Source: an uncultured Bacilli bacterium (lineage in GTDB: Bacteria; Bacillota_I; Bacilli_A; RF39; UBA660). Taken from it: a stretch of DNA of 34,912 bases. The position numbers were made by a program, and so were the translations under genes. Below, in pieces: positions 1,280-26,573 of this stretch (its first letter is position 1; every line of letters begins with the position of its first letter). The notes beneath the pieces are model-generated. The model ran no database searches. It was not told the origin of the DNA and worked only from the letters and a program-made list of their open reading frames with translations. The stretch is from NCBI GenBank assembly GCA_944358145.1, contig CALVQO010000004.1, positions 1-34,912 of the forward strand, read 5' to 3'.

Positions 1280-1300
1280 AAAATAATATATTATTATTTT
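1280..1300 (-). terminator. Weak AT-only inverted repeat over the stop of the HATPase gene
   Basis: Nine-base arms AAAATAATA and TATTATTTT separated by three bases, covering the stop codon of the upstream gene and followed on the minus strand by CTTTTTC. It contains only A-T pairs, so termination here would be inefficient. Confidence 0.3.
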
Positions 1301-2740
1301 TTAAATTTGTATCTTGTCGGATCTGTTGGTTCAATTAAATCACTTGTAAGCATAAGTGAAATAATTTCAGAAGCACGTGATTTTTTTAAATGAAATAACA
1401 CCTCTATATCCTCTCTCTTAAAATCATATTGATAAGTATACTTATTAAACAATTGCTGAATTTGATTATAAGTATTTCTTCTTATACTATTAGGAAGATT
1501 TTTATACATCCTAATCATAAAATAGTCTTCATCATTTACAAAATTTCCGGTCATAACCGGACTTTTTTCTTCAATAACCGGACTTTTTTTTATATATCCT
1601 TTATTAGGAAAAGAAACTGTAAAGGAAGAAACATCAGAACTAAACGCTGGTTTTACACTACAGTCATTATAAGATTCAACTATTCTAACAAGTCCACTTC
1701 CTCTTCTTTCCATAAAATGTAATCTATTAAAAATATCAGAGATTACTCTATTTCTACGCATAGAAGAAATTTTAGTTATATCAGCATTTTGAATAAAACT
1801 ACCATCAAGCATTCCTCCAGGTGATGTTATCTCTAGCCTATTATCAAACATATCAACATGAATCTCAGATCCAACAATCTGATAATCTCGATGAATAATA
1901 GCATTAACTAAAGCTTCTCTTATAGCCCGTATGGGATAGTCTTCAACTTCAACTCTTGTCATTCCAACAATTTGCCAACTTGTTTTTGAGTTGTTTTTTA
2001 TAAACATTTCAGCATTTTCTAATAACGAAATAATACTGCCTGTATATTCTTTATCATCTATGGCATCACCATCAACAGTACCCTTAACTAACCCTTTCCA
2101 TCTTGTACAAAATATTCTTGACTGAGTAAGCAAACCTTGATCAGATAACAATAATCCAGCATTCGTAACTTTATTTTCATTTGTCATTAGTTCTAAAGAA
2201 ATATAATCTTTATTCTGATTAATCTCTTTCCCCAGTTTCACGCTTTAAAGTAGCATTTAAAAGAGTAAAACTCACATCCGTTAAGCCATATATACTTGGC
2301 AATTCATCAAAAGTAGTATTTTGACCTTTCAAAATCAAATTATACAAAATATGCTTAGGCGCAGGAATTGATTCATTGCCTGCTCTAATATATGCCTCCT
2401 TTCTGCCATCAGAAATAAAATAATATGGAGTTCTAGGTCCATCTCCAATTTTTATTTCCAAAAAATCTAAATTATTCTTTTTAAAACTTTTTAACTCATA
2501 TCTTGGAAGCGGTGTAATTTTAGCATTTATTAATTCAGATACTTTTTCTGAATCTTTCTCCACATTCACAAGACCAACTTCCTTTTTATCATTATCTCTA
2601 ATACCAAATAGCAAAATGCCTCCATTAGTGTTAGCAAATGCTGAAACTGATTTTAGCCAACTTTTCGGCTTTTGATATTCTACTTTTTCCTTAAAATCTA
2701 TATTTGTATTTTCTACATTTAAATTCTGATTCAAATCCAT
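1294..2740 (-). pseudogene. AlbA_2/HATPase_c_4 ATP-binding regulator (COG2865-like), split by a frameshift
   Basis: Two overlapping reading frames form one gene. The first (2219-2740, 173 aa) is an AlbA_2 (Schlafen AAA_4-like) domain with WLKSVSAFANTNGGILLFGI. The second (1294-2241) contains a GHKL-like ATPase segment (REALVNAIIHRDY, then LEITSPGGM) and a C-terminal winged-helix region with KKSRASEIISLML. In intact relatives these are one protein of about 480 residues. The frames join if one base is removed from the four-C run at 2230-2233 (GGGGAAAG on the minus strand). The apparent GTG start of the second part lies inside conserved sequence, so it is not a real start. The linker contains KSPVIEEKSPVM, a short tandem repeat. 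The gene is either inactive or shows an indel error in the assembly. Its ATG at 2740 has an AGGGGG site. Confidence 0.8.
1555..1590. repeat. Tandem AACCGGACTTTTTT repeat inside the HATPase gene
   Basis: Two copies of AACCGGACTTTTTT, 21 bases apart, encode the KSPVIEEKSPV linker on the minus strand. The same 32-base arrangement recurs in the gene's upstream region (2873-2904) with one extra T. Confidence 0.8.
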
Positions 2741-3096: not shown

Positions 3097-4233
3097 TTAA
3101 TTGTTGTAACATTTCAACCCCTCATGTAATATGTTTAAGCTTGCATTGTAATCTCGCTCTATTTCTAATCCACATTTACTACAATAATACTACCTTATTC
3201 TTATATTTTTCATTAATTCATTCTTATTTCCACATCTACTACATATCTGTGATGATGCATAATATGGATTTACTTGTATAAATATCTTATTTAACCAGTT
3301 GCACTTATATTTGAGTATTCTTATAATTTCACTGAATGTTGCACTTGCGATTTCTTTTCGCAAATGTTTGTGATTATTTTTATTTTCTAACATTTTCTTT
3401 ACTTGGAGCTTTTCTGCAATTATAATATCATGATGAGCGGTTATTTGTTTCACTATTTTCTCTACTGTCTTTTTTCTAGCGTTTTTTAGTTTTCGATATA
3501 CTTCTTCTAATTTTTTCTTACTCTTAATATAATTCTTACTTCCTTTTATTTTTCTAGATAATTCTTGTTGTAATCTTTTTATCTTTCTTTCATATTTATC
3601 TAAATATCTAGGATTGCCATAATATTCTTTATTACTGGTAACAACTAAGTTTTTTACTCCTATATCTATTCCTACAGCTTTATTCGTTGTTTTTTCTGGT
3701 AACTTTATTTCTTCTTCTACACATACAGACACATAAAAGCGTATTCCAATTTCTTTAATGGTTGCATTTAATATTCTTCCTGGTAACTTATCTAAATTAC
3801 GATATCCTCTTATTTTAACCTCCTTTAATTTAGGTAATTCTATTACTCTTCTTTTTAAATCTACTTTTATATTTTCGTAAACTGTACCTTTATAACTGCT
3901 TGTAACAAAGCTAGTGCGAAAGCTTTCTTTCACTCCTTTTTTCTTAAATTTCGGATACCCTCCAAAACCTTTTTCAAACAATCCAAAACCCACCATTAAA
4001 TCAGTAATGGCATTTTGTAGTGAACAACTATCTACTTCTTTTAAAAATGAATAGTCTTTTTTTAATCCTGGTAATTCTTTTATTAAATCAAATTTTGTTA
4101 AATATTTATTATTTCTTTTTAAATCCAAACAATAATTATAAACAAACCTCGTACATCCAAATGTTTTATGAATTAACGCTATTTGTTCTTCATTTGGATA
4201 CAAACGAAATTGATATGCTTTATGTATTTTCAT
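3097..4233 (-). pseudogene. tnpB: IS200/IS605-family TnpB (OrfB) with premature stop
   Basis: RNA-guided nuclease/transposon accessory protein. The N-terminal HTH starts MKIHKAYQFRLYPNEEQ. RuvC motif I is KAVGIDIGVKNLVV and motif II is IIIAEKLQV. A zinc finger begins with CSRCG. A TAG at 3190-3192 then cuts the protein, but the same frame continues for 30 more codons with YYCSKCG (second half of the finger) and ERDYNASLNI (third catalytic Asp of RuvC), ending with TAA at 3097. So this is a nonsense mutation, and the truncated product lacks an essential catalytic residue. The ATG at 4233 is chosen over the upstream start: it matches family N-termini, has GGGGTGA before it, and lies after the promoter. 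No tnpA is present, so the element is not autonomous. Confidence 0.85.
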
Positions 4234-4255
4234 TATCTTCACCCCTGATAATAAA

Positions 4256-4284
4256 ATTATACAACAAATACATATGTTCGTCAA
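4256..4284 (-). promoter_or_regulatory. Promoter of tnpB
   Basis: TTGACG (4279-4284), 17-base spacer, TATAAT (4256-4261) on the minus strand: a near-consensus sigma-A promoter. It lies just upstream of the ATG at 4233 and supports that start. Confidence 0.75.
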
Positions 4285-5090: not shown

Positions 5091-7373
5091 CTAATTTCCA
5101 TAATAAGATAGACTTGCATTTTTAACTCTCTCAACCGTTACACCCTCTGCTTCATGTCTACCACAGCCTGGGCAAACATCATTAATAACTCCTGTATATC
5201 CACAAACTGGATCACGATCGACTGGATGATTAATTGCTCCATATCCAATATCATTATCATGCATTAAACGTACAATTGCTTCAAATGCTTCTAAGTTATT
5301 CGCTGTATCTCCATCAAGTTCAATATAACTGATATGACCTCCATTTGTATATTTATGATATTTACCTTCAATTTTAAGTTTATCTGCAACACTAATATCA
5401 TAATATACTGGAACATGGAATGAATTTGTATAATACTCTCTATCCGTTATCCCTGGAATAATACCATAAATAGACTGATCAATTCTTGTAAATCTACCAC
5501 TCAAACCTTCCGCAGGGGTAGCAATAAGTGAGAAATTAAGTTTATATTCTTCAACATACTCATCACACTTATTTCTCATAAATTTAATGATTTCAAGTCC
5601 TAATTTTTGAGCTTTCTCATCTTCTCCATGATGATGACCACATAAAGCCTTCAAACATTCAGCAAGACCAATAAAACCTATTGTAAGTGTTCCATTTTTA
5701 AGAACAGGCTTTAATCTTGAATTTGGTTTTAATCCTTTTGAATCAATCCATACACCTTGACCAAGCAAGAATGGAAAATTATAAACCTTTTTACTACATT
5801 GAAGTTCAAATCTTTCTAATAATTGATCTTTAACCATATCCATGATACTTTCAAGTTCTTCGTAGAACCCTTTCATATCCACTTTTTTACCATCCAAAAT
5901 TCCATGCTTAATACCAAGTCTTGGTAGATTAATCGTTGTAAAGGATAGATTTCCTCTTCCTGGAACCACTTCATTATCCGGATTCGCTGGATTAGCCATT
6001 ACCCTCGTACGGCATCCCATATAAGCAATTTCCGTTTTATAATCTCCAGGTTTATAATATGGTAAATTAAATGACGCATCAATAAATGAGAAATTTGGAA
6101 ATAATCTTTTCGCAGAAACCTTACAAGATAACTGAAACAAATCATAGTTAGGTTCACCAGGATTATAATTAAGTCCTTCTTTAACCTTAAAGATTGAAAT
6201 TGGGAATATTGGTGTTTCACCCTTTCCTAACCCAGCATCAGCGGCAAGCAAATAATTTTTCGTAACCATTCTTCCTTCTGGAGAAACATCTGTACCAAAG
6301 TTAATAGATGAAAATGGTACTTGTGCACCTGCTCTAGAATGCATCGTATTTAAATTATGAATAAATGCTTCCATTGCTTGATAAGTCATTCTATTTGTCT
6401 TAGCTATAGCCTTATCATAAGAAACTCTAAATATTCTTTCCACTTCACTACTATCTTTATAATATTCTTCAAAATCACTGATATCAAATTCAATAGACTT
6501 TAATTTGTCAATATCTTTAACAATATGATCCCATTTAATCAAATTAACAAATCCCATTAAATCAAAGTAATCATATAAAGTTTGTTTAAATTGTTTCTTA
6601 AATGTTTTTAAAACGCCAGGTGCTAAGAAATAATCAAAAGCTGGAATACTTTGTCCACCATGTTGATCATTTTGATTCGATTGAATTGCTATTGCTGCTA
6701 GTGCAGAATAACTCATAATATCTTGTGGACAACGTAAGAATCCATGTCCAGTTGAAAAGCCATCTTTAAACAACTCTAATAAATCAATTTGACAACAAGT
6801 AGTAGTACCCATTGGTAAGAAATCCATATCATGAATATGAATCGTTCCATTATCATGTGCCTCTGCAAATTTTGGATCCATCATATATGATTTAGCAAAT
6901 TCTTTTGATAAATTACTTCCATATTGAAGCATCGTACCCATTGCAGAATTTCCATCAATGTTACCATTTTCTCTTTTATTATCATCTTCTAAAGCTGTCT
7001 TCAAAGATAAAGATTCAACAATTTTCATTAATTTATGATATCTTTTTTGAAAAACATCTCTTGATTCCGCTCTTCTTTTACGATAACTTGAAAATGATTT
7101 TAATACATCATCATAACCAAGTTCTGAAAGTTTAGATTCAATTAAATCTTGAATATCCTCAATTTTAATAATTTCTAAACCAGCATATTTTTCTTTAATA
7201 GTATCAATAACACTATTAAAAACTTTATTACTGTCTTCCGGATTATAGTTTTCATTTAATGCACTATCAAATCCTTTTTTAACAGCAATAGCAATCTTTT
7301 CTTCATTAAATGCAACTTTCTTCCCATCTCTTTTAATAACTTTTAATGAATCTAACTTCGCATCTGTTTTCAT
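5091..7373 (-). CDS. nrdD: Anaerobic (class III) ribonucleoside-triphosphate reductase, large subunit
   Basis: 760 residues. It reduces ribonucleoside triphosphates to deoxyribonucleotides without oxygen. An N-terminal ATP-cone (residues about 10-100, KVIKRDGKKVAFNEEKI) gives allosteric control. The catalytic barrel follows, with GTTTCCQIDL, NDQHGGQSIPAFDY and NTMHSRAGAQVPFSS. The C-terminus has a cysteine motif CGYTGVINDVCPGCGR, normally the zinc site that precedes the radical loop. The expected RxxGY glycine loop is absent: the chain ends VERVKNASLSYYGN at a TAG, and the loop sits on the next ORF. It is the first gene of nrdD > radical ORF > nrdG. The ATG at 7373 has a GGAGGG site and a good promoter upstream. 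Confidence 0.95.
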   Translation of the reverse strand: MKTDAKLDSLKVIKRDGKKVAFNEEKIAIAVKKGFDSALNENYNPEDSNKVFNSVIDTIKEKYAGLEIIKIEDIQDLIESKLSELGYDDVLKSFSSYRKRRAESRDVFQKRYHKLMKIVESLSLKTALEDDNKRENGNIDGNSAMGTMLQYGSNLSKEFAKSYMMDPKFAEAHDNGTIHIHDMDFLPMGTTTCCQIDLLELFKDGFSTGHGFLRCPQDIMSYSALAAIAIQSNQNDQHGGQSIPAFDYFLAPGVLKTFKKQFKQTLYDYFDLMGFVNLIKWDHIVKDIDKLKSIEFDISDFEEYYKDSSEVERIFRVSYDKAIAKTNRMTYQAMEAFIHNLNTMHSRAGAQVPFSSINFGTDVSPEGRMVTKNYLLAADAGLGKGETPIFPISIFKVKEGLNYNPGEPNYDLFQLSCKVSAKRLFPNFSFIDASFNLPYYKPGDYKTEIAYMGCRTRVMANPANPDNEVVPGRGNLSFTTINLPRLGIKHGILDGKKVDMKGFYEELESIMDMVKDQLLERFELQCSKKVYNFPFLLGQGVWIDSKGLKPNSRLKPVLKNGTLTIGFIGLAECLKALCGHHHGEDEKAQKLGLEIIKFMRNKCDEYVEEYKLNFSLIATPAEGLSGRFTRIDQSIYGIIPGITDREYYTNSFHVPVYYDISVADKLKIEGKYHKYTNGGHISYIELDGDTANNLEAFEAIVRLMHDNDIGYGAINHPVDRDPVCGYTGVINDVCPGCGRHEAEGVTVERVKNASLSYYGN

Positions 7374-7411
7374 AAACTTCCCTCCACTTTATACATCTAC
7401 GATACAACTTG

Positions 7412-7440
7412 ATTATAAATTCATATATAGAAAAAAACAA
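7412..7440 (-). promoter_or_regulatory. Promoter of the nrdD operon
   Basis: TTGTTT (7435-7440), 17-base spacer, TATAAT (7412-7417) on the minus strand, 38 bases before the nrdD ATG. No convincing NrdR box pair was seen, although TATATATGAATTTATA-like sequence lies in the spacer. Confidence 0.65.
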
Positions 7441-7758
7441 GTCATTTTTTAGACAAATTTTTGCCATTTTTTATAGATGCCCGTAAACACTGGGAAGGAT
7501 TAAAAATTTTTTTTGTTCGCTTTACGACAATTGACACAAATTTAACAAAATTAAGGTTAGAGTTTTTTAAAAAAACAAGAAAGTCAATTTTTAAGAAATT
7601 AAAAAAGTTTGTTTTTCCCTAAAATAAGCCAAAAAGCAAAATGCTTTTTTTAAAAAAATGAAGATTAAGCTATTTTAAAAAAAGTCAAACCTCAATTTTT
7701 AGCTAAAAATTATCAACACAAAAAAAATTAAGAAACAAGTGATAACACCACAAAATAC
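7441..7758. other. AT-rich non-coding stretch upstream of nrdD
   Basis: No ORF of note on either strand. The one clear structure is AAAAAGCA-AAA-TGCTTTTT (7631-7649), which could terminate in either direction but has no gene leading into it. A CCCGTAAACACTGGG motif (7490-7504) is the only GC-richer patch. I see no riboswitch I can name. Confidence 0.5.
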
Positions 7759-7787
7759 TTGCAAGATAAATAAATATTTTATATAAT
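7759..7787 (+). promoter_or_regulatory. Promoter of tRNA-Arg
   Basis: TTGCAA (7759-7764), 17-base spacer, TATAAT (7782-7787), 13 bases before the tRNA 5' end. Confidence 0.75.
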
Positions 7788-7800
7788 CTATATATCAAAT

Positions 7801-7877
<77 letters not shown>

Positions 7878-7946
7878 TTTTATTTGACATATATTTTCGT
7901 AAGGATTAAAATAGACATTTTCCAAAGATTAATTTTTAAACACATT

Positions 7947-7972
7947 AAAACTTGCAAAAATTTGCAAGTTTT
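7947..7972. terminator. Bidirectional terminator between tRNA-Arg and the leftward operon
   Basis: AAAACTTGCAAA and TTTGCAAGTTTT form a perfect 12-bp palindrome with a two-base centre. It serves the tRNA on one strand and the long operon ending at 7981 on the other. Confidence 0.7.
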
Positions 7973-7980
7973 ATAATTTA

Positions 7981-8841
7981 TTAATTACAAGAAGTACTAC
8001 AAGCAACATCGCCATAACTAGTCGACTTGCACACGGTACAACATTTCCTACCACTATCGGTAACATAGCAATTACTACTACCACCCGAAGATCCCCCACC
8101 ATCGCCATTAGCATTAGCAATAATTGCTATAACGAAGAAAGCTATAATTCCTATGACAACCCAAGAACTTCCAGACTTTTTATTATTTATAGATTTTTGA
8201 GAATACGAATCTACAGTATTTTTAATATCTACCTTTAGTTGATCAATACTAATATTAGTAAAAATATTATTAAAAACATCTCTATCTCGAAATGGTAACC
8301 CATAAAAATATTGTTGTATTTTATATAATTCTGTTAAATTTTTAGATGATGATTCTTTTTTTAAGGTCTCAAATAAAGCAAGTTTATTATGAAAGCCATT
8401 AAGCAAATGAAAAAGATAAACCCGCTTTTTATAAATCAAATCTTGAAAAGTAGGATTTTCTAAGACTTTGATTAAATACTCTTTCTCATCATTTGGTAAA
8501 TTAAAATAAACAGTAAATTCTTCTTCTTTCTTTTTATATGACAAGAAAAAAACCCGTAATGTCTCTCGACCATCAATCGATATAACTTCTTTATAGTTAA
8601 TATAAATACCATAATACAATCCATCGCACCAATATAAATAAATAGGTTCATACATAACAAGTCCACTCTTTTCATGTAAATAAATGGGATCATAATAATC
8701 AAGTTTAACTCTTACTCGATGCTTTTTAATATCTACACTAGACGGAACAACTTCTTTAAAATTCTTTTCTTCATTTACTTTTGGATTTTTAATTCCATAT
8801 TTTTTTATTAATTCTTCCATAGAATAAGGATCATTACTCAT
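7981..8841 (-). CDS. Membrane protein with Cys-rich C-terminal tail, unknown function
   Basis: 286 residues, not recognised. About 220 soluble residues without a signal peptide come first. One membrane segment follows at roughly 227-245 (WVVIGIIAFFVIAIIANA), then a Gly/Ser linker and a 30-residue tail with six cysteines (SNCYVTDSGRKCCTVCKS, then ACSTSCN). The expected topology is N-terminus inside and Cys-rich tail outside. The tail cysteines suggest disulfides or metal binding; no known motif fits. The soluble part is rich in Tyr, Lys and Leu. GGGGTGG precedes the ATG. It is the last gene of the long leftward operon and ends at a strong terminator. Confidence 0.75.
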   Translation of the reverse strand: MSNDPYSMEELIKKYGIKNPKVNEEKNFKEVVPSSVDIKKHRVRVKLDYYDPIYLHEKSGLVMYEPIYLYWCDGLYYGIYINYKEVISIDGRETLRVFFLSYKKKEEEFTVYFNLPNDEKEYLIKVLENPTFQDLIYKKRVYLFHLLNGFHNKLALFETLKKESSSKNLTELYKIQQYFYGLPFRDRDVFNNIFTNISIDQLKVDIKNTVDSYSQKSINNKKSGSSWVVIGIIAFFVIAIIANANGDGGGSSGGSSNCYVTDSGRKCCTVCKSTSYGDVACSTSCN

Positions 8842-8872
8842 AAAACCACCCCATATGAATATTCATAAGAAA

Positions 8873-9448
8873 TTAAAGTAAATTTTGTAAAAGAGAATAA
8901 AAGCCCCATATTCCTATTCCACCAAAAACAATAGAAAGAATAGCTAACAATTTTTCTTTATTCTTAAATTTAATAAAAGTAATAGCCAAACTAATTACAA
9001 AGCCAATAACTAATCCCCAAAAAGTCCAGATAGAATAAAGCAATAAAGTTAAGTTGAGCGAAAATGCTAAAATAGCAAAATCTTCACTAAATTTCTTTTT
9101 CTTAATCTGACAAAAAAGAGAAAAAATAGCAAAAATAATCCCGATCACAATAAAAATCAATGGTAACCAAAAAACTTGAAAATATAATCGATCATAATAT
9201 AAATAAGATAAGTAAGGATCATCATAATATACTTTTCCATTATACATAGCAATCACTAATTTAGCAAGAACAATTTCAATACCATGATAAAGGTAAAAAG
9301 CAACAAAGCCCATGATAAAAACTCCTAAAAGATGAACCGTGGAAACACAAAATGAAAACTTTTTATGAACAGGAAATCCACAATTAGGACAAGTTTTTAA
9401 AATATCATCAACTTGTTTATTACATTCTTGACAAATGATTTCTGCCAT
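8873..9448 (-). CDS. Zinc-ribbon membrane protein, unknown function
   Basis: 191 residues. The N-terminal zinc ribbon has CQECNKQVDDILKTCPNCGF (two CxxC knuckles, residues 6-25). Four or five membrane helices follow, for example STVHLLGVFIMGFVAFYLY and LPLIFIVIGIIFAIFSLF. Small zinc-ribbon/TM proteins of this layout are common in low-GC Firmicutes and have no assigned function. The start ATG overlaps the stop of the upstream gene as TAATG, so translation is coupled. It is the third zinc-ribbon protein in a row in this operon, and its ribbon is the most diverged of the three. Confidence 0.75.
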   Translation of the reverse strand: MAEIICQECNKQVDDILKTCPNCGFPVHKKFSFCVSTVHLLGVFIMGFVAFYLYHGIEIVLAKLVIAMYNGKVYYDDPYLSYLYYDRLYFQVFWLPLIFIVIGIIFAIFSLFCQIKKKKFSEDFAILAFSLNLTLLLYSIWTFWGLVIGFVISLAITFIKFKNKEKLLAILSIVFGGIGIWGFYSLLQNLL

Positions 9449-9816
9449 TATTTATCCCTCGTCATAATAAAATAGCCACCCGTAAGAATTAAAACCGACC
9501 CAACAATGGTAATAAATATTTGCATTCCAGAAACCAAAGTGTTGCCTAAATCTTCAACATTATTAGCAACGGTCACTATGGAATTTTGAATTCCTGTATA
9601 AGCATCACCACCATAAGTTCGATCATATTCCGAAATACCACGATAATGAATATTTAAAGCAAGAATAATGGATAAAACCCCAACAATACACAAACAAATA
9701 CCAAATCCAAATTTTTTGCTACGATACTGTTGTTTGAATTCTTTCCCACATTTAGGACAATATTTTGCTTGATCACTAATTTCATGACCACATTCTCTAC
9801 ACTTATATAACGCCAT
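9448..9816 (-). CDS. Zinc-ribbon protein with two membrane segments
   Basis: 122 residues. The zinc ribbon MALYKCRECGHEISDQAKYC continues PKCGKEF, giving two CxxC knuckles. A membrane segment (about 34-55, FGFGICLCIVGVLSIILAL), a 45-residue loop that is probably external, and a second membrane segment (MQIFITIVGSVLILTGGYFI) follow. The ribbon is almost the same as that of the gene at 9829-10350 (MALIKCSECGQEISDQATIC), so the two are recent relatives with different bodies. AGGTGTG precedes the ATG. Function unknown; the fixed ribbon with changing membrane and external parts suggests a shared cytoplasmic partner. Confidence 0.75.
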   Translation of the reverse strand: MALYKCRECGHEISDQAKYCPKCGKEFKQQYRSKKFGFGICLCIVGVLSIILALNIHYRGISEYDRTYGGDAYTGIQNSIVTVANNVEDLGNTLVSGMQIFITIVGSVLILTGGYFIMTRDK

Positions 9817-9828
9817 TTCTACACACCT

Positions 9829-10350
9829 CTATCTTTCTTTTTCATAAATAAATCCACTGTCATCCTCTAAATGATCCCCAACGATATCAAAATTCCGGAA
9901 GAACTTGCCATTAGTGCCATAAGTTCTAATTAAATCCCCGTCTTTTCGATAAGTTATGGAAGCATCAATCGTATCTCCATCATATACCATTTTAACATAC
10001 CCAGTTTGATCTTTATATAACTCAATGGTAACAACAGCATCATATTCAGGATCTCGATAAACATAGGTTCCTTCAATTCCTGTAAACCGTAAGGAAATAA
10101 CAACAACAATTAAAATAACGGCTAAAATAATAGAAATCCACCAATAATTTTTCAAAATTGTTTTAAAACCCTTCTTTTTCTTTGGCAAAACAACATGAAA
10201 CCCACATTCTGGACACACAGAATTTTCCTCGGATAAAATACAACCACATTCTGGACACTTTATTTCCAAACACGATTTTCCACATTTGGGACAAATTGTA
10301 GCTTGATCACTTATTTCTTGACCACACTCACTACACTTAATCAATGCCAT
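9829..10350 (-). CDS. Double zinc-ribbon, single-TM protein with external beta domain
   Basis: 173 residues. Two consecutive zinc ribbons (residues 6-25 and 31-52) have eight cysteines in CxxC pairs. A lysine-rich turn and a membrane segment (about 70-88, WWISIILAVILIVVVISL) follow, then an 80-residue domain beginning FTGIEGTYVYRD with alternating beta-strand pattern. That domain resembles the small lipocalin-like domains often seen after a TM in Firmicute surface proteins, but no family is assigned. The ATG at 10350 lies inside the end of the upstream Cys-rich gene (10-base overlap) with GGTGA before it, so the two are translationally coupled. Confidence 0.75.
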   Translation of the reverse strand: MALIKCSECGQEISDQATICPKCGKSCLEIKCPECGCILSEENSVCPECGFHVVLPKKKKGFKTILKNYWWISIILAVILIVVVISLRFTGIEGTYVYRDPEYDAVVTIELYKDQTGYVKMVYDGDTIDASITYRKDGDLIRTYGTNGKFFRNFDIVGDHLEDDSGFIYEKER

Positions 10351-11485
10351 ACTACTTCACCTTTCCTTTCAATTTTTTTTTTATAGCATTTATCCTTAAT
10401 GTTGCGATAACCACTAGGACAAGTATATCTTTGATAAGCACTTCGAACGGTTCTCTTAACACATAACCCTGTTTCTTTATCCGTCACTGGATATTCATAG
10501 GTACAGGTTGTTCCTACAAAAGTCTCTTTTCCAGTATAATCCCATCGACAAGTTGATCCTACTAAAGAATAGCCTCTAGGACAGACACGTTTAAAATTAA
10601 GCACTCCCTTTCGACAGCCATAATATGGAGCAACACCAATTTCGTATAAAGAGTCATAATCTCCTCCAACACATTCTGCCACAATCGTTGGCTCTGTATC
10701 TTCTCGATCTTCGCCAATGCATTTATTGCCATCCTCTGATAAATAATAACCAAATCCGCATTCCTCTTTTTCTGAAACAATATCACTATAAACCGTTTTC
10801 ACGCAAGTATCCCCATCTAATTTATAACTGCTCGAACAATAGTATTCAAGGGTAGCAGCAATAATCTCATCATCACTTTTTTCTTCTTGCGATTGATCAC
10901 TAGACTGGTTATTATCTGGAACGGAAGACTCCTGATCAGATGGATAAACTTCTTGATCCTCTTCATCTTGGAGCCTATCTTGTTCGTTATCGGACTTCCA
11001 AGAATTTGCATCTTCACCCAAAGAAGTATCAGAATAATCATGATCAATTTGACCATCGTCTTCCTCCAAAATAACTTCTCCACTTTCCTGAGCGGGCAAT
11101 AACTCAATATATTCATTTTCGCCACTTTTACCAGCAATATAACCTTTTATACCATTACTTGTTTCGATGAAATACCAATCAAAATCACCATCGATACTGT
11201 ATAGATTTCATCCTGATAAACTTTTCCTAAAATATCAGCATTTACACTAGCTTCTCTCCGAATATTAATATAATCCGTAATGACTTTTATTTGTAAAACC
11301 GATTCATCCCGAAGATTTGTCTGAATTACTAATTCTTCTTCCGTATTTTCAATTTGCGTATCTTCTTTTGGATTCCGATCGAAAACTAAAACCTGTATAA
11401 TACCAATACTAACAACAATTGCCAATAAACCGAATACAAGAAGAATTCCTTTATAATATTTTTTAATAAAAACGATTTTAATCAC
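10341..11485 (-). pseudogene. Membrane-anchored SH3b and Cys-rich repeat protein, interrupted by a frameshift
   Basis: Two frames belong to one gene of about 380 codons. The first frame (11147-11485) has an N-terminal membrane anchor and the start of an SH3b domain (VITDYINIRREASVNADILG). The other frame supplies the rest of that domain (DGDFDWYFIETSNGIKGYIA), an acidic linker, then about six CxxGY-type Cys repeats such as YCSSSYKLDGDTC, VCPRGYSLVGSTC and TCPSGYRNIKDKC. Restoring one base at 11193-11194, between GTA and GAT on the minus strand, joins them. The first ORF starts with GTG at 11485; the second has no genuine start of its own. SH3b domains usually bind peptidoglycan or cell-wall peptides. 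The lesion is real decay or an assembly deletion. Confidence 0.75.
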
Positions 11486-11511
11486 TTCCTTTTAATGATG
11501 AACGAACCTTC

Positions 11512-11985
11512 TTAGGAATTTAATTTTTCGTTAATAAAACGAATTTCTTCATCGCTAAGAAATAAACTTTCGCCAGTTCCACCAGCCTCGAGATCATCTA
11601 AACTATCTTGTAAACAATCTCTATAATTTGTCACTAACGATTTTAAATAAGTAAGATGATCGGAATCTTGAATAGGATTGGAAATCGAATAAACCACTCC
11701 ATCAACAATTAAAAATTCTTCACTTCCACTAGAACGCTCCATCGTAATCGACCATGTATTACGACAAACAGCCACTTTCGTTAAAGTACCATTCGTAAAA
11801 TGATCGGAAAGAAGGTCATAAAGTTCCATGGCTTCATCACTGAAATTTGTTGATTGATCAGCTAAAACATCTCCTGATTCATCATTACTATTTTCCTGAA
11901 GGTCATTACTATTTTGATAAATTAATAAAAATACAAGTCCCACCGTAAAACCAATGATAACCATCGCTAAAATAATTTTTTTCAC
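11512..11985 (-). CDS. Membrane-anchored extracytoplasmic protein, unknown function
   Basis: 157 residues. The signal-anchor at residues 4-23 (IILAMVIIGFTVGLVFLLIY) is followed by an Asn/Asp/Ser-rich spacer and a compact domain with two cysteines (AVCRNTW, YRDCLQD) that may pair. The C-terminus LSDEEIRFINEKLN resembles that of the next upstream gene product (LSTDQIRRINRALR), suggesting a shared C-terminal helix. GTG start at 11985 with GAGGTG upstream. Not recognised; the operon position and anchor suggest an envelope role. Confidence 0.7.
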   Translation of the reverse strand: MKKIILAMVIIGFTVGLVFLLIYQNSNDLQENSNDESGDVLADQSTNFSDEAMELYDLLSDHFTNGTLTKVAVCRNTWSITMERSSGSEEFLIVDGVVYSISNPIQDSDHLTYLKSLVTNYRDCLQDSLDDLEAGGTGESLFLSDEEIRFINEKLNS

Positions 11986-11995
11986 CCTAACACCT

Positions 11996-12541
11996 CTACA
12001 ATCCTAAATCAATCCAATGTTGTCTTAAAGCTCTATTAATGCGTCTTATTTGATCTGTCGATAATTGCTCATATCGAGCACCATTTTGATAAATATCATC
12101 ACAATCTTCATCTCGAAAAACCCAATCTTCAAAAGCATCATTATAATAAGACCAATAGCAAGTATTAATAGTTCCTCCAACCATATTGGTTCCCACAACT
12201 TTAAAAAAGTAAAATTGAATATCTTCGGTATAGCTGCGATTAAAATCATCATATTCATATCCGACAACAGCCTCTAATAACCGAACTTCTTGAGGATTCA
12301 AAAACTCTTCATCTTCAATTAAAGCAATCGTCTGATTTACAACTTGTGATTCTACATACGATAAATGATGATTCCAAAAGAATGCCACAATAACTATCAC
12401 TATACCATAAACCAAAATTGGTAAAGCACATAAAAGCTTTTTCTTCCAAGTTTTATGTTTTACACATTTCTGATAAAAAAGAATACTACCAAAAAGAATA
12501 ATAACCAAAAGACTAACAAATAGAATATATACCCACAACAT
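11996..12541 (-). CDS. Two-TM membrane protein, unknown function
   Basis: 181 residues with membrane segments at about 4-23 and 36-55 separated by a short basic loop, then an external domain of about 120 residues. This domain is acidic and aromatic, with cysteines in NTCYWSYY and DEDCDDI. It ends LSTDQIRRINRALRQHW, matching in pattern the C-terminus of the neighbouring 157-residue protein. ATG at 12541 with an AGAGG site; ten bases separate it from the next gene. Not recognised. Confidence 0.7.
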   Translation of the reverse strand: MLWVYILFVSLLVIILFGSILFYQKCVKHKTWKKKLLCALPILVYGIVIVIVAFFWNHHLSYVESQVVNQTIALIEDEEFLNPQEVRLLEAVVGYEYDDFNRSYTEDIQFYFFKVVGTNMVGGTINTCYWSYYNDAFEDWVFRDEDCDDIYQNGARYEQLSTDQIRRINRALRQHWIDLGL

Positions 12542-12551
12542 AGAAAACCTC

Positions 12552-13487
12552 TTAACTCGTTTTTGTCAAAATATAAGTCGTACCTTCTATACGAATTCGA
12601 ATTTGATCTTCAGAAACAATCTCAATATCAAGCACATCATTAAAAGGAGTACCATCTGAACTTTGAAATTCTCTTAACTCGATTTCATGATCATTAAACA
12701 TTCTGGCATCCCAACTATCACTAACCGTGTTAATATTTAAACACCCATATGGAGCCACACAATTCCAATAACTTACAAATATCCAATCCTCTGTATAATC
12801 ACTTCCAGCATGATATTTAAAGGTAATATGAATATTTCTTCCGGTCATATTGATACTACCCTCAGGATAATTCTGATACTCAAACTCATGATCCACCAAA
12901 TAAAATCTCTTGTCACTTAATATCTCGTCTTCGTCTTTATAATCAACCACTTGCTCTAAATGTTCCTTAGCAGCACCTAAATTTCCTCTTTCAAGCGCAG
13001 CAACACCCAAATTATAATGATACTCATTTAATACGAGTTGATTATCATTTAACAATCCTTCTCTAGCAAAATAATACATAATGGTATCTCTATCAGCTTC
13101 AGATTCACAAATACCAGTAATATCTTCAGAATTCTTTAATACTTCCAAATACAAAGTACAATTACCATTAAAAACGCCGAATTTTTCATAGACATAATCC
13201 ATTTCTTCTGATGTAGCATTCGTAACATTAATCGTCGTATAAGTAATCCCTTGTTCTTTTAAATCATGATCAAGAACATCTTTTACTGTCGAACTGACAG
13301 GATCATTATCTCTTTGTAAAAAAATAACTTCAACTTGATTGGTATGTAATAAACGATCTACTTGAGCTTTAATACTTTCCCCTTTAAAAGACAAAAAGAC
13401 AAATATTCCGACAACAGCAATCAAAACAATAAATAAAGTAATAAAACAAATTTTCTTTTTTGAGCTTTTCCTCTTATGATCTTCCAT
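12552..13487 (-). CDS. Membrane-anchored protein with thioredoxin-like fold and TPR-like helix pair
   Basis: 311 residues. A basic N-terminus and one membrane segment (about 13-33, ICFITLFIVLIAVVGIFVFL) come first. Residues 50-145 (VEVIFLQRDNDPVSSTVKDV onward) have the beta-alpha-beta order of a thioredoxin-like domain but no CxxC. Residues about 155-180 (YHYNLGVAALERGNLGAAKE) look like a single TPR hairpin. The last 110 residues form a beta-rich domain with a Cys pair in WNCVAPYGC. Fold assignments are pattern-based inference. GGAG precedes the ATG. An external sensor or scaffold role would fit, but no function is claimed. Confidence 0.7.
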   Translation of the reverse strand: MEDHKRKSSKKKICFITLFIVLIAVVGIFVFLSFKGESIKAQVDRLLHTNQVEVIFLQRDNDPVSSTVKDVLDHDLKEQGITYTTINVTNATSEEMDYVYEKFGVFNGNCTLYLEVLKNSEDITGICESEADRDTIMYYFAREGLLNDNQLVLNEYHYNLGVAALERGNLGAAKEHLEQVVDYKDEDEILSDKRFYLVDHEFEYQNYPEGSINMTGRNIHITFKYHAGSDYTEDWIFVSYWNCVAPYGCLNINTVSDSWDARMFNDHEIELREFQSSDGTPFNDVLDIEIVSEDQIRIRIEGTTYILTKTS

Positions 13488-13512
13488 AAACTACTCCTTT
13501 CCCCACGAACAT

Positions 13513-14136
13513 TTACCAATTCAACTGTAATGGATTATCTCCAAAGCAAATATTAATGGTTAAACTAGAATCTTTTATCTCAGAAGAAACTTCCGTAAAC
13601 AAATAAAGATGCTTTGTTTCTAAAGGATCAATTCCATTAAAATAATCTAAATCATATTCACCGTCACTATCTCGAGATATTTCAGTAGTAGATATCCCCG
13701 TATAAGTATATCCTCCATCAAAGGTAAAAGTAGGAGTACATGTATCCGATAAAAATCCTCTTAACACATAATCACTAAAATACTCAGTTCCTGTATTTTT
13801 AATCGTGATATCAATAACTTCATAAACACTTCCTTCTTCAGCTGCATAATAACTATAAAAACTCTGAGTTGGCTGTGGTGGAGTAATTTCATCGGTGTAA
13901 AAAACATCGTTTAAAGTAATTTCCGCCTTTATTTCATCATCACGATACATACCAACAATTTCCTCAGTTTCTCCTTGATGAATCGTAATTGTATCTACAT
14001 CAACGTCTTCCGATACCGATCCATGATTATTTCCTTCATTAACAGTTTCTCCCCCATTTTCGTTTAAAGATGAATTGGTATTACCACACCCAGTAATAAC
14101 TCCAATCATCAAAGCTAAGAATATAATTTTTTTCAT
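13513..14136 (-). CDS. Lipoprotein with DUF4352-like domain
   Basis: 207 residues from the chosen start. MKKIIFLALMIGVITGC is a lipoprotein signal peptide with the lipobox ITGC; the mature protein begins at the Cys. An Asn/Glu-rich linker follows, then a beta-rich domain from about residue 65 (GMYRDDEIKAEITLNDV, then YEVIDITIKNTG). This resembles the DUF4352/telokin-like domains of secreted Firmicute lipoproteins. An in-frame start 12 codons upstream was rejected because it lacks signal-peptide features and overlaps the preceding gene. The chosen ATG lies one base after that gene's TAG, with AAGGAAAAG upstream. Probably part of the envelope module encoded by this operon. Confidence 0.75.
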   Translation of the reverse strand: MKKIIFLALMIGVITGCGNTNSSLNENGGETVNEGNNHGSVSEDVDVDTITIHQGETEEIVGMYRDDEIKAEITLNDVFYTDEITPPQPTQSFYSYYAAEEGSVYEVIDITIKNTGTEYFSDYVLRGFLSDTCTPTFTFDGGYTYTGISTTEISRDSDGEYDLDYFNGIDPLETKHLYLFTEVSSEIKDSSLTINICFGDNPLQLNW

Positions 14137-14137
14137 A

Positions 14138-14560
14138 CTACTTTTCCTTTCTTTCTTTATTCTTATAAACATTTCGAACTAACCGATCTTTTCCCATTTT
14201 ATCAAAAATAACTAACGAGGATTTGCCACTTTCCCAAGTGATTTCGACATAAATTTTATCGTTTCCAGTAGCCCTCCTGCCAGAAGAATCTACACTAACA
14301 ACTTCATATTTTTTAATATCTTGAAAAGGAAACTGTTGCAAATCTACTTTCCCTTGAGCAAGAAACACAGTCGTTAGCGGTTGATAGGTTACTAAAGAGT
14401 ATCCTTTAAAAATACCATCAATTACTTGACCACAAGGATATCTTGTTCCATACTTTTTTTCATTTTCTGTTTTTTTCATACTTTCCATACTATTGGCAAT
14501 ACTGCCCATACACTTAAAAATAATCAAAATTCCGATTATAGTTCCAATAACTGTCGCCAT
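14138..14560 (-). CDS. Small membrane-anchored protein, first gene of the long operon
   Basis: 140 residues from the ATG at 14560, preceded by AGGTGGTG; a GTG nine bases earlier is part of that ribosome site and was rejected. One membrane segment (residues about 3-21, TVIGTIIGILIIFKCMGSI) is followed by a cytoplasmic or external domain with beta-strand pattern (IFKGYSLVTYQPLTTVFL, IYVEITWESGKSSLVIFD). The second part resembles small PH-like or signalling-modulator domains, but no family is assigned. Its TAG is one base from the lipoprotein ATG. The promoter is not clear: TATAAT occurs at about 14651-14656 on this strand without a good -35. Confidence 0.7.
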   Translation of the reverse strand: MATVIGTIIGILIIFKCMGSIANSMESMKKTENEKKYGTRYPCGQVIDGIFKGYSLVTYQPLTTVFLAQGKVDLQQFPFQDIKKYEVVSVDSSGRRATGNDKIYVEITWESGKSSLVIFDKMGKDRLVRNVYKNKERKEK

Positions 14561-14798
14561 ACTCACCACCTAAATATACCTTTTTACAAGTATTTTTCTA
14601 GCTTTTTACCTTACCATAATCTCCAAATAATCCGAATTAAGTCAGTATATAATTATAGGAATGGTAAAAACTTATAAATTCAAAACTCCTTTCTGTCATC
14701 AATTATATCACAAAAAAAGAGAAACCTCAACGAATAAGTGAGACGTTTTTGAGTAAACTAATGAGAAAATATATAAATGAAAGGTGGTGCTCTTATCG

Positions 14799-15044
14799 AT
14801 GAACAAAAAAGACGAAAACTACATCTACTATCTTGTCGCATATAACCTAAAAAGACTAAGGAAGAAAAAAGGATTAACTCAAAGTGAATTCGCTGAAAAA
14901 TGTTCTTATAGCAACGGGTTCATCATGAATATCGAAAGTGAAAAGTACCACCAAACTTTTAGTTTAGGAACTCTTTGGACATTTTCAAAAGTTTTGAATG
15001 TTGATATAAGAGAACTATTTACACCGATAGAAGAAGAAAAATAA
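14799..15044 (+). CDS. XRE-family HTH transcriptional regulator
   Basis: 81 residues consisting of one Cro/C1-type helix-turn-helix: LKRLRKKKGLTQSEFAEKCS, then NGFIMNIESEKYHQTFSL, then LNVDIRELF. The ATG at 14799 has AAGGTGGTG nine bases upstream. A GTG at 14784 is in frame but is itself within that site. It is divergent from the long leftward operon with a shared upstream region of about 240 bases, so it is the obvious candidate regulator of that operon and of itself. Followed by a clear terminator. Confidence 0.85.
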   Translation: MNKKDENYIYYLVAYNLKRLRKKKGLTQSEFAEKCSYSNGFIMNIESEKYHQTFSLGTLWTFSKVLNVDIRELFTPIEEEK

Positions 15045-15066
15045 TGATACTTTACTAACATGAAAT

Positions 15067-15094
15067 TCTTGTAATTATTTTACAAGATTTTTTC
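15067..15094 (+). terminator. Terminator of the XRE regulator gene
   Basis: TCTTGTAA and TTACAAGA arms (15067-15074, 15080-15087) with a five-base loop, followed by TTTTTTTC. Confidence 0.75.
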
Positions 15095-15145: not shown

Positions 15146-17068
15146 ATGAAACTAATAAAAAAAATAAAAAAGTTTGTAAAATGGTTATTCCGTTGGCTAA
15201 AATATATTGTTTTAATCATCATCTGTTTTATTGCATATCTTTTTAGTGGCAAAAAATCATCGAAACTAGAAACTAAAAAAGAAGAAATAAAAAAAGGAAA
15301 GAGTAAAAAGAATACCCCTAACAATATAACAACCAATATAGATACCAATAAACCCTTAGTAAAAGATTCTATTCTAAAACTATCAAAAGAAGAATTAAGA
15401 GTAGAGATCATCAATTTTTATTGTCAAGAACTAGAACAAAAAGAACTTTACTTAACAAAAGAAGATTTTGAAATTATCGACATCCTAGAAGAAAAAATAG
15501 CTCTCGTAATAGAAAGTGAACTAACGAGATTGCATTTTAAAAACTTAGAAGAAGTAAAAGAAAAAATAGAAGAAATAGGAAAAATCGAATTAGCAAGTAT
15601 TTTAGATGAGAAAATATTAAAAGAACCAATAATAACAGAAAATCCTAAAAAAGAAGATATCATTCAAAAATATACAACTTATAAAAAAATGGAAGAAAAA
15701 AAGATTGAAAAAGGAGTTTCTAAAAAAGAGGATAACTCTCCAATCATTTTTCAAAGCAATCCTTCTTTAACAGAAGAAAGTGTACTCGAAAAAAAGAATT
15801 CTTATCAAAAAGAAGTACCTCCCACCCCAAATATTTCTCAAGAACTTTTAGAAGAAGACAAACCAGATTTAACTTTTCAAACACCCAAATTAGAGCCTGA
15901 AATTGTTTTCACGTCACCTATTCCAGATTTATCAGATTTAGTAGTAAAAGAAGCAGCCATACAACCAGATTCAATTGAAATATTAGAAAGAGAAAAAGTT
16001 AGTGATGCTCCTACTCCCTCTAAACCCGTCATAGAAAAATTCGATGACACAGAACAAGAACGAAAAGAATTTACTATTGAAGAAGAAAAACTAGTAGAAA
16101 CTAAACCAGATACTCAAAAAGAAAGAGAAAAAATAGAAGAGCCAAAAGGGAAAGATAAACAAAAAGAGGAGAAAAAGCAAGAATATATAACAATCAACTT
16201 ATCTATACTTGAAACCCAAATAGCAGAATTAGAACACACAAAAAATAAAGAGCTTGAAAAAACCGATTTAGAAGATAAAAATTATGACTCCCTTTTGATA
16301 AAAGTGGATACCATATTAAAAGAAGTAAAAGAGAAACAAAAAATGAATTTAAATGCAAAAGACAAACAGAAATTAAAAGAACAGGAATTAAAACTAGAAA
16401 ACCTGAAAAGTAACATTGAAAACAATTTAGAAAATGATTTAACCGAAGAAGAAATGCAGTTACAAGAAGATCTAACTGAACAAGAGCTAACGACTCTCGA
16501 ACAAGAACTTAAAAACATACACCTGGAATATCAAATAGACTTAAACCAAAAATTACTTACGAAAGTAGAGGATTTAGAATATTTAAGTAAAGATCGTTTA
16601 AGTATTGTAGAAAAAGAACTAATCAAACAAAGACTGAACAAAATCTGCAAAGTTATTGAACTTCCTTCAATCCTTCTTCTCCCCTTCTTTCGTAATCGCT
16701 ACTTTTTCTTTTTTACCACTGGTATTTTTATAAACAAACATTTCAATCTTTTAAACTCTATTTTAAAACATCAAACAATAGAATATCAAGATCCTGTTTT
16801 AGACCATATTAAAAAAGGCAGTGATGCCCTAGATGAAGCGTTAAAACTAACGACAACTAACATTTCTTATTTAAATAACTTAGAGCAAGATATTTTAAGA
16901 AAATACCCCGAATTATCATTAGATCAAGAATACTTATCTTATATTAATAATCTAAAATATTCTTTAATGAAAAACGAAGAAAAAATGTTAAAGAAAAAGA
17001 AAATGATTGAAAAGTATAATTTGAAATATAAAGGAAAAGCGCGGAAATTAAAAAAGAAAGTTGCTTAA
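15146..17068 (+). CDS. Large coiled-coil membrane protein, unknown function
   Basis: 640 residues. A basic N-terminus and one membrane segment (about 19-34, [14 protein letters not shown]) lead into a very charged Lys/Glu-rich region to about residue 490. It has an alpha-helical domain near 75-155, a disordered Pro/Thr/Glu stretch, then long heptad coiled coils (about 340-490). A second hydrophobic stretch (about 503-530, including [20 protein letters not shown]) precedes a C-terminal helical domain with a basic tail ending LKKKVA. A membrane-tethered scaffold or division/envelope organiser is possible, but no family is recognised. Start ATG with GGTGA. Its TAA overlaps the valS stop codon on the opposite strand. 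Confidence 0.75.
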
Positions 17069-24622: not shown

Positions 24623-25966
24623 TTAGTCAGGGTTTACAATATAAGGATCTGCTATAACTCCACTTCCTGTTATGGTTACATCAGATGAGATATTAATTAC
24701 AGGACGTACGCCAAAAGGATAACCCACATATGCACCCTTTGGTGATAAAGAACGACTACCAAAAAATAGGGATCCCCCTGATGAAGTAGCAATAGATGGG
24801 GTCATTGTCCAAATATTATTTGGCGCATCTCCAACGTAAAGATAATAACCACTATTATAATCTCTGCCTTTTCCTCCAGCATACATCACTTCATCTGCAG
24901 TAATTAATCCAATTTTAGTTTGATATAAATCATTGGTATTACTACATTCAAAAGTAGGTTGATTATTCACATATAATCTTTCATAGGCTGCATAATGTAT
25001 TTCGCTACTTGGCTTACTACTCCATTCATACCCACTTGCCATTTCCCGATCATTACAAAATCCTGGTGTACTTACGATCATACTATCATATGCCTGTAAA
25101 TTATTACTATACCATGTATCTAAGCTTTTTTTCATATTACTTAAATCTCCACTATTCGGATTACTTGGCCGTTGACTTCCCTCTGTATAAGTAAATCCTA
25201 CATATTCACTTTTTCCAGACTTTCCATATCCAACAAAAGAAGTAAATAAATAATTTGTACTACTATCATCATACCCATTGGCTAATACTGTTTCTTTTCC
25301 AGCTGCGTCTACTGTTGATTTTTCACCACTATAAATAACTCTTATACTTCCATCTTCATTAATCCGGATAATTCTCCAGTACTTATCTGCGAATACTAAA
25401 TAATTATCTTCTACATCTCCTCTATAGTAATAGGTTATTCCTTTACTTGTGGTTTCTTCATATAAGCCTACTGTTTGTTCTCCACAATTACCTCCATTAT
25501 TGCTTCCATTAGTACAACTGGTTTTACTAAAATCTGGTGTATCCAAATTTACTTCTACTTCACCTAATGGCGTATCTACTATTTTGGTTGTTGCTGTTGC
25601 AAAATCCAAATAACACTTTGTTCCTTTGGTTGTAAATGGTGTTACTGTTAATTTTTGTGTTTCCATATCATAAGAAAGTTTTATGCTATCGTCTTGTTCT
25701 CCATCTATCGTACAATAGCTTTCACTTGTTAACTCATAATTACCTTCAGGTATGGTATCAACACTTTCTCCATCTACAGTAATTGCCACTACATTTAAAT
25801 CTGCCAAACTATAATTAATCGTACCACTCGCTATAGGTATATCTGCTGTTGTTCTGTATTTTGCTCTCGTAAAATTAAGGATTATTGCACTGATCAGTAG
25901 TACTGCAAAACTTCCAATAATAATATTTCTTTTAATATGTCCTCTTTTTAATACCTCAAATTCCAT
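24623..25966 (-). CDS. Surface protein with N-terminal anchor and DUF6273-like domain
   Basis: 447 residues. A basic start and membrane segment (about 14-31, NIIIGSFAVLLISAIILNF) are followed by FTRAKYRTTADIPIASGTIN, a pattern shared by secreted TasA/camelysin-like and pilin-like proteins of Firmicutes. The C-terminal 280 residues match DUF6273-type domains (C-type-lectin/formylglycine-enzyme-like fold): YWRIIRINEDGSIRVIYSG early and GVRPVINISSDVTI late, ending GSGVIADPYIV. Such domains are expanded in uncultivated gut Bacilli and presumably bind ligands. AAGGAG precedes the ATG. No reverse transcriptase or template repeat is present in the window to suggest diversification. Domain naming is from memory of motif wording. 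Confidence 0.75.
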   Translation of the reverse strand: MEFEVLKRGHIKRNIIIGSFAVLLISAIILNFTRAKYRTTADIPIASGTINYSLADLNVVAITVDGESVDTIPEGNYELTSESYCTIDGEQDDSIKLSYDMETQKLTVTPFTTKGTKCYLDFATATTKIVDTPLGEVEVNLDTPDFSKTSCTNGSNNGGNCGEQTVGLYEETTSKGITYYYRGDVEDNYLVFADKYWRIIRINEDGSIRVIYSGEKSTVDAAGKETVLANGYDDSSTNYLFTSFVGYGKSGKSEYVGFTYTEGSQRPSNPNSGDLSNMKKSLDTWYSNNLQAYDSMIVSTPGFCNDREMASGYEWSSKPSSEIHYAAYERLYVNNQPTFECSNTNDLYQTKIGLITADEVMYAGGKGRDYNSGYYLYVGDAPNNIWTMTPSIATSSGGSLFFGSRSLSPKGAYVGYPFGVRPVINISSDVTITGSGVIADPYIVNPD

Positions 25967-26117: not shown

Positions 26118-26573
26118 ATGATATATAGTGAAAGATTAAAATATTTAAGAGAAGAAAAAGAATTAACCCAAAAAGATTTAAGTGATTTAATCCAAGTTCA
26201 TCCTGCGACCTACAGTCAATTTGAAAGAGAGTCAAGTATTATTCCCATAAAAAGATTAAATGAATTTGCTAATTTTTTTCACGTCTCTTTAGATTATTTA
26301 TTCAGCTTTACGAACATTAGACAATATAATCATTCAAATGAAAAAATTAATCTAGAATTATCAGGTACTAGATTAAAAGAATTTAGAAAAGAATACAAAA
26401 TTACTCAAGTAAATTTATCGAAATTTTTAAACACAACCCAGTCTAATTTTGTTGGTTATGAACAAGGAAAATTTATTATAGCAACTCCCTATTTATATAT
26501 GATTTGTAAAAAATACAATATCTCTGCTGATTATCTCTTAGGTAAAATAGATGAACCTAAATATTTAAAATAG
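26118..26573 (+). CDS. Transcriptional regulator with two tandem XRE HTH domains
   Basis: 151 residues with two Cro/C1-type domains in one chain. The first is at about 3-62 (LKYLREEKELTQKDLSDLIQ, then FHVSLDYLF) and the second at about 82-142 (LKEFRKEYKITQVNLSKFLN, then YNISADYLLG). The duplication suggests binding to a single asymmetric or extended operator without dimerisation, which is inference. The ATG has GGTGAT upstream. It is divergent from the DUF6273-like gene (about 150 bases shared), so it is a candidate regulator of it. Confidence 0.85.
   Translation: MIYSERLKYLREEKELTQKDLSDLIQVHPATYSQFERESSIIPIKRLNEFANFFHVSLDYLFSFTNIRQYNHSNEKINLELSGTRLKEFRKEYKITQVNLSKFLNTTQSNFVGYEQGKFIIATPYLYMICKKYNISADYLLGKIDEPKYLK

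Follow-up and report, generated by a model that had tools for sequence, protein, structure and literature searches.

The ten genes that run leftward from a divergent XRE gene in this DNA of an uncultured Bacilli bacterium are, in our judgment, probably the cargo of a tRNA-Arg-linked accessory cassette, in which a conserved XRE/operator/promoter switch precedes an exchangeable operon of membrane proteins that would probably alter the cell surface. We analyzed a stretch of 34,912 nucleotides (hereafter, the window), and our survey of XRE genes and their cargo covered 36 genomes of the genus and 60 further loci. Because the switch is common to dozens of species while the cargo behind it changes, we think it likelier that the ten proteins serve as accessory surface cargo than that they are parts of a fixed machine. 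What had been a ten-gene puzzle can now be tested as a unit, in which membrane cargo that can be exchanged lies behind a regulator and operator found conserved in dozens of uncultured gut Bacilli.

A tight operon of membrane-anchored proteins

The initial annotation described a leftward set of ten tightly spaced genes between 7981 and 14569, with a divergent XRE gene at 14799, and the gene coordinates confirm both (Table 1). On the minus strand, from 14569 down to 7981, successive genes from g10 to g1 are spaced by 1, 25, 10, 10, 26, -10, 12, -1 and 31 nt, so the longest gap is 31 nt and two pairs overlap. By sequence, all ten products carry a membrane segment or a lipobox, compared with the nine or more first claimed. 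A related zinc ribbon of the CxxC-CxxC type opens each of the products of g2, g3 and g4, and phmmer comparisons bear out the likeness first noticed among them (g3/g4, 9.7e-15; g3/g2, 5e-6); Pfam Zn_Ribbon_1 or _3 scores above its cut-off in g3 and g4.

Table 1. Coordinates of the operon, its regulator and the borders of the island in the window.
Feature	Position	Strand	Description
tRNA-Arg(CCT)	7801..7877	+	ARAGORN; left border of island
Insertion relative to empty site of G005, about 7.2 kb	7878..15083		blastn of L082 against the window
Hairpin, bidirectional, terminator-like	7946..7973		between operon end and tRNA-Arg
g1	7981..8841	-	cytoplasmic domain, one TM, short Cys-rich tail; relative in G029, 30% identical
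g2	8873..9448	-	zinc ribbon and about four TM segments
g3	9448..9816	-	zinc ribbon and two TM; relatives in G009 and in the G085 element (L188:5684-6058)
g4	9829..10350	-	double zinc ribbon, one TM, external beta-type domain; relatives in both G017 loci
g5	10341..11485	-	TM, SH3b, CxxGY repeats; frame broken inside SH3b
g6	11512..11985	-	one TM, external domain with paired Cys
g7	11996..12541	-	two TM, external alpha/beta domain with paired Cys; conserved partner of g8
g8	12552..13487	-	one TM, thioredoxin-like domain without CxxC, TPR-like helices, beta domain
g9	13513..14136	-	lipoprotein, lipobox ITGC; 68% identical to the gene after valS in G029
g10	14138..14569	-	one TM and small domain; start at 14569 (GTG) or 14560 (ATG)
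Promoter-like site of operon, TTGAGG-17-TATAAT	14702..14730	-	consensus match, overlaps operator
Operator O1, CTCAACGAATAAGTGAG	14726..14742	+	conserved palindrome; predicted site
XRE regulator	14799..15044	+	about 81 aa, divergent from operon

Searches with Pfam, NCBIfam, PHROGs and PADLOC gave no function beyond zinc ribbons, SH3-like domains and weak TPR matches, in line with the earlier impression that the operon holds no recognizable enzyme, transporter or secretion family. PADLOC profiles of known anti-phage defense systems gave only weak partial matches, none of them convincing. We also predicted structures for two of the products. The model of g8 (pLDDT 75) has a thioredoxin-like part, a TPR-like part and a beta domain, and its Foldseek matches are weak (best E 2.8e-3); as the thioredoxin-like part has no CxxC, thiol-disulfide activity of the predicted protein is unlikely. 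The model of g7 (pLDDT 83) has no convincing fold match.

One gene, g5, had been read as a single gene with an SH3b domain and CxxGY repeats. Both features are present, but the gene is not intact: the frame is lost inside the SH3b domain, so that g5 reads as two ORFs in different frames (11147-11485 and 10341-11099). In G003, a relative (L043:5474-6523) is unbroken and reads through in a single frame. The broken g5 is either a pseudogene or an assembly error; a programmed frameshift was rejected, as by eye there is neither a slippery sequence nor a homopolymer at the break. Terminator-like hairpins in the region number three, close to the 2.3 expected by chance.

The operon lies in an island at tRNA-Arg(CCT)

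tRNA-Arg(CCT) borders the island on one side, and on the other lies a coiled-coil gene that neighbors valS. The site is empty in three sister species (G005, G024 and G027): there the coiled-coil gene comes directly after nrdD, and in G005 and G024 nothing but tRNA-Arg separates the two. In a fourth relative, G017, the same tRNA-Arg(CCT) is occupied and split by an element that encodes a tyrosine integrase and an excisionase: the displaced 3' half of the native tRNA is found at the right end of the element (L042), and the 3' half of the left tRNA copy comes from the element itself. This element also has an XRE gene, from which three genes for zinc-ribbon membrane proteins diverge. In G008, the coiled-coil gene and valS are neighbored by an XRE gene with divergent zinc-ribbon/SH3b genes, and two further such genes adjoin tRNA-Arg on another contig. 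An insertion adjacent to a tRNA gene, empty in sister species and with the same tRNA targeted in a relative, makes this a tRNA-linked genomic island.

The ORFs of the window include no integrase and no backbone protein of such elements, and the window has no flanking att repeat that copies the 3' end of the tRNA. The backbone protein of about 375 aa is likewise not found in G000, a 78% complete assembly; the assemblies are drafts, and contigs end at several of the islands. As integrase and att repeat are lacking here, we infer rather than observe descent from an element of the G017 type. The copy in the window, having no mobility gene, is a resident or decayed form of the cassette.

A conserved regulator and operator precede the cargo

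The small XRE gene had been named as the likely switch of the operon. Its subfamily occurs at 60 further loci in gut Bacilli of dozens of species, and a palindromic operator, CTCAMCGAATRAGTGAG, usually doubled at a distance of 22-23 nt, is conserved upstream of these genes. In the window, the second copy is degenerate, ends in AAACTAATGAG and lies 22-23 nt nearer the XRE gene. Allowing up to two mismatches, the core GAATAAGTGAG is present upstream of 45 of the 58 XRE genes tested, usually near position -68 or -45; among the 28 closest genes, 26 have it and 20 have two copies spaced by 22-23 nt. Shuffled sequences give a chance expectation of about 0.02 per sequence. A scan of the 36 genus genomes for the full palindrome, tolerating one mismatch, finds three loci, each beside this XRE gene, and the control reading has none. 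Together, these counts yield a prediction of the exact DNA target of a small XRE regulator.

The gene that faces the regulator is also often of one kind. The nearest divergent gene encodes a zinc-ribbon protein with a TM segment at 15 of the 23 close XRE loci, compared with 1 of 596 other ORFs (Fisher test, 1.6e-23, with related species counted as independent, as in all our survey statistics). Any TM segment is found in this gene at 22 of 23 loci and in 188 of the 596 other ORFs, zinc ribbons and membrane proteins being called in these counts by simple hydropathy and motif rules.

Promoter-like sites of the TTGAGG-17-TATAAT kind occur in the region at a frequency near chance, and this one is the best that points leftward. 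As the operator overlaps it, the XRE protein most likely represses its own cassette. Thus, the view that the gene is the switch of one operon of envelope-located products is supported by a conserved operator that lies between the two and overlaps the predicted promoter.

The closest XRE protein, 94% identical, is in G033, where it faces two different zinc-ribbon genes after tRNA-Arg(TCT). DNA common to the window and G033 (83.5% identity) spans the XRE gene and the promoter and stops at the leader. By eye, the leader in the window retains a ribosome-binding sequence with no start codon after it, and in G033 the same sequence directly precedes the first cargo gene. This suggests that the first cargo gene of the window may have been lost or exchanged.

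The cargo is exchanged behind the switch

The initial annotation proposed that all ten products form one undescribed envelope assembly or sensing complex, and named scattered relatives in a gene-neighborhood search as the finding that would count against it. Several features speak for such joint work: the genes lie on one strand with short gaps or overlaps under a single switch, every product reaches the membrane, and the g8-g7 pair is kept in three genera. However, the full set is found in only one of the 36 genus genomes. Elsewhere in the genus, relatives of g9 (68% identical), g1, g3, g4 and g5 occur singly or in other mixtures (in G029, G003, G009 and G017). A search of 385 genomes of the order finds g8 and g7 paired again in G184 and G274, where a divergent XRE gene precedes them at both loci. 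No other pair is kept together in other genera, and this is the only one whose conservation predicts that its two products make contact.

The cargo behind the XRE switch differs almost everywhere, and what is exchanged may be smaller than a gene. In G110, the external domain of g7 is fused to a double zinc ribbon and several membrane segments, and g6, g7 and one protein of G017 have similar ends; from these sequence likenesses, domains appear to have been exchanged between anchors. Since the parts are so freely exchanged, with the same switch facing quite different cargo at most loci and with g5 frameshifted in the window, a single complex of all ten products is not upheld, and we regard it as highly improbable.

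Comparison with phage exclusion genes and resident envelope operons

Surface proteins beside a Cro/CI-type regulator are also familiar from temperate phages. Relatives of the zinc-ribbon/DUF4352 proteins in this cargo lie between repressor and integrase in phages of Ruminococcus, Brochothrix and Lactobacillus, and two of them are annotated, by annotation only, as superinfection exclusion proteins. That place can hold true exclusion genes, as shown by Ltp, a surface lipoprotein that is made in the prophage state and blocks DNA injection (PMC3952083). Moreover, g9 matches phrog_806 over nearly its full length. The operon might accordingly be read as the remnant of a prophage or phage-like island, of which surface genes of the lysogeny module survive and act in exclusion in the manner of Ltp or Sie. 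Small surface-anchored proteins next to such a regulator, with a lipobox (g9) or a membrane anchor (the others) and an external domain, are shared with the Ltp/Sie genes. However, those genes adjoin the integrase, sit between it and the repressor in the prophage and number one or few, whereas the window has ten genes and no such placement. By eye, its ORFs include no phage structural, packaging or lysis gene. Phage genes of this type run with the repressor, whereas the cargo in the window runs away from the XRE gene. Searches for the XRE subfamily in IMG/VR, for the element backbone in IMG/VR, PLSDB and INPHARED, and for g9 in phage records by tblastn returned no match. On our analysis, then, a phage remnant seems unlikely. 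A viral origin was also considered by way of g4 and set aside, since the sole IMG/VR match of g4 is confined to the zinc ribbon of a phage protein that is otherwise unrelated.

Alternatively, this could be a resident envelope operon with a fast turnover and an effect on wall integrity like that of TcaA or Llmg_0524-0525-0526. The latter is a small, tight operon of Lactococcus lactis that encodes CX2CX10CX2C membrane proteins and binds zinc; it is transiently expressed and affects resistance to lysozyme and cumene hydroperoxide (PMC4628341). Tightly packed genes for membrane proteins with a CX2C-CX2C zinc motif are common to both, but the L. lactis operon has three genes, and the passages drawn on here mention no divergent XRE gene, tRNA gene or mobile element. 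The SH3b domain of g5 fits a role at the wall, and mobility genes are absent from the surroundings of most clade A cassettes. The resemblance to the TcaA/YvbJ type extends to a cytoplasmic zinc ribbon, a TM segment and an external domain (in g4, and in part in g3); the external domains differ, however, and g3 scores 15.1 bits against a curated NCBIfam TcaA cut-off of 550. Against a resident operon, too, the genes are missing from most sister species and cassettes of the sister clades are carried on elements, and we hold this reading to be doubtful. Because of the company these genes keep, our analysis would somewhat favor exclusion or surface conversion over pure envelope maintenance.

A model for the cassette

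We therefore return to an accessory cassette with a conserved switch and exchangeable cargo. In this model, an XRE dimer would most likely bind both operators, cover the -35 region and shut off the cargo promoter, and the protein would also limit its own synthesis. Loss of the XRE protein, or entry of the cassette into a cell that has none, would turn the cargo on. Zinc-ribbon-anchored, lipid-anchored and SH3b-bearing domains would then be displayed on the cell surface, a change that would probably benefit the host or a resident element by excluding phages or rival elements or by modifying the envelope. If the cargo does exclude phages or other elements, it would amount to an envelope-based defense in a little-known group of bacteria.

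Related integrative elements of the order

Elements of about 10 kb related to that of G017 are found in G274, G110, G085, G328, G229, G183 and G367 as well, and we defined the family from L042, L186-L188 and L196-L199. They have in common proteins of about 375 and 240 aa without a Pfam family. A Rep-like protein is encoded by most, and several have a CPTCMYNA-type motif in a small protein; wherever the contig extends far enough, there is also a recombinase of the serine or tyrosine type. Where an element is seen in full, its cargo slot runs divergently from the XRE gene and is mostly filled by genes for proteins with a zinc ribbon, a membrane segment or a lipid anchor.

The window resembles these elements in its XRE gene divergent from variable membrane-protein cargo, and homologs of g8-g7, g3 and g4 occur in their cargo slots. 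It differs in having no recombinase, att sites, Rep-like protein or backbone genes, and in its XRE clade and operator. The XRE proteins of most elements form two supported sister clades, B and C, with other palindromes at the same position, and most members of these clades lie in elements. Among clade A cassettes, by comparison, a recombinase of these types is nearby at only 2 of 59 loci, and there is no enrichment at tRNA genes (2 of 59 within 1.5 kb, against 1.6 expected); the tRNA link may thus be peculiar to the window and G033.

These observations point to small integrative elements, apparently unreported, whose cargo slot gathers surface proteins; a literature search for RF39 integrative elements or zinc-ribbon exclusion proteins found nothing on point, and the family in this order is so far apparently undescribed. 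The related cassettes, with their other XRE clades and operators, would then be the cargo slots of elements of about 10 kb in the same order. Broader still would be a widespread, undescribed class of XRE-gated cassettes in gut Bacilli, found in small integrative elements and resident islands alike, in which external domains, swapped between anchors of the zinc-ribbon, lipid and plain TM kinds behind a fixed operator, form an exchangeable defense of the surface against phages and rival elements; we think this rather improbable. The family itself is not uniform: the cargo slot of the G229 element holds other small genes, and the XRE protein of G183 stands apart from clades B and C.

A second XRE pair and related elements

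The XRE switch of the ten-gene operon is paralleled within the window by a second divergent pair, in which a double-HTH XRE gene faces the gene for a signal-anchored protein. This pairing is found again in relatives, at loci L041, L043, L046, L086 and L095.

The integrative element of the relative G017 itself supplies the 3' half of the tRNA-Arg gene; thus, its insertion swaps tRNA sequence, with the crossover point appearing to be the anticodon loop. G017 also carries a second module, adjoining a tRNA-Leu gene, that closely resembles its counterpart at tRNA-Arg. In G183, an ABC-transporter substrate-binding protein gene seems to be interrupted by an element of the same family. This element contains a DnaB-like helicase gene, and its cargo includes a thioredoxin-like lipoprotein.

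Left of the operon, the ATP-binding regulator-like gene may represent another frameshift in the window, and the TnpB-like ORF is seemingly truncated.

Coordinates of features in the window and in compared genomes
Feature	Location	Strand	Remarks
Double-HTH XRE gene	window 26118-26573	+	second divergent pair
447-aa signal-anchored protein gene	window 24623-25966	-	divergent from double-HTH XRE gene
ATP-binding regulator-like gene	window 1294-2740		appears as ORFs 1294-2241 and 2219-2740, which overlap and differ in frame
TnpB-like ORF	window 3190-4284		transposon-associated
Second G017 module	L041 (G017:C4) 6606-11188		second Rep-like protein, zinc-ribbon cargo, XRE
tRNA-Arg, G017 element	L042 6453-6529 and about 15995-16050		3' half from element
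G183 element	L198 5523-16149		G017-type integrative family
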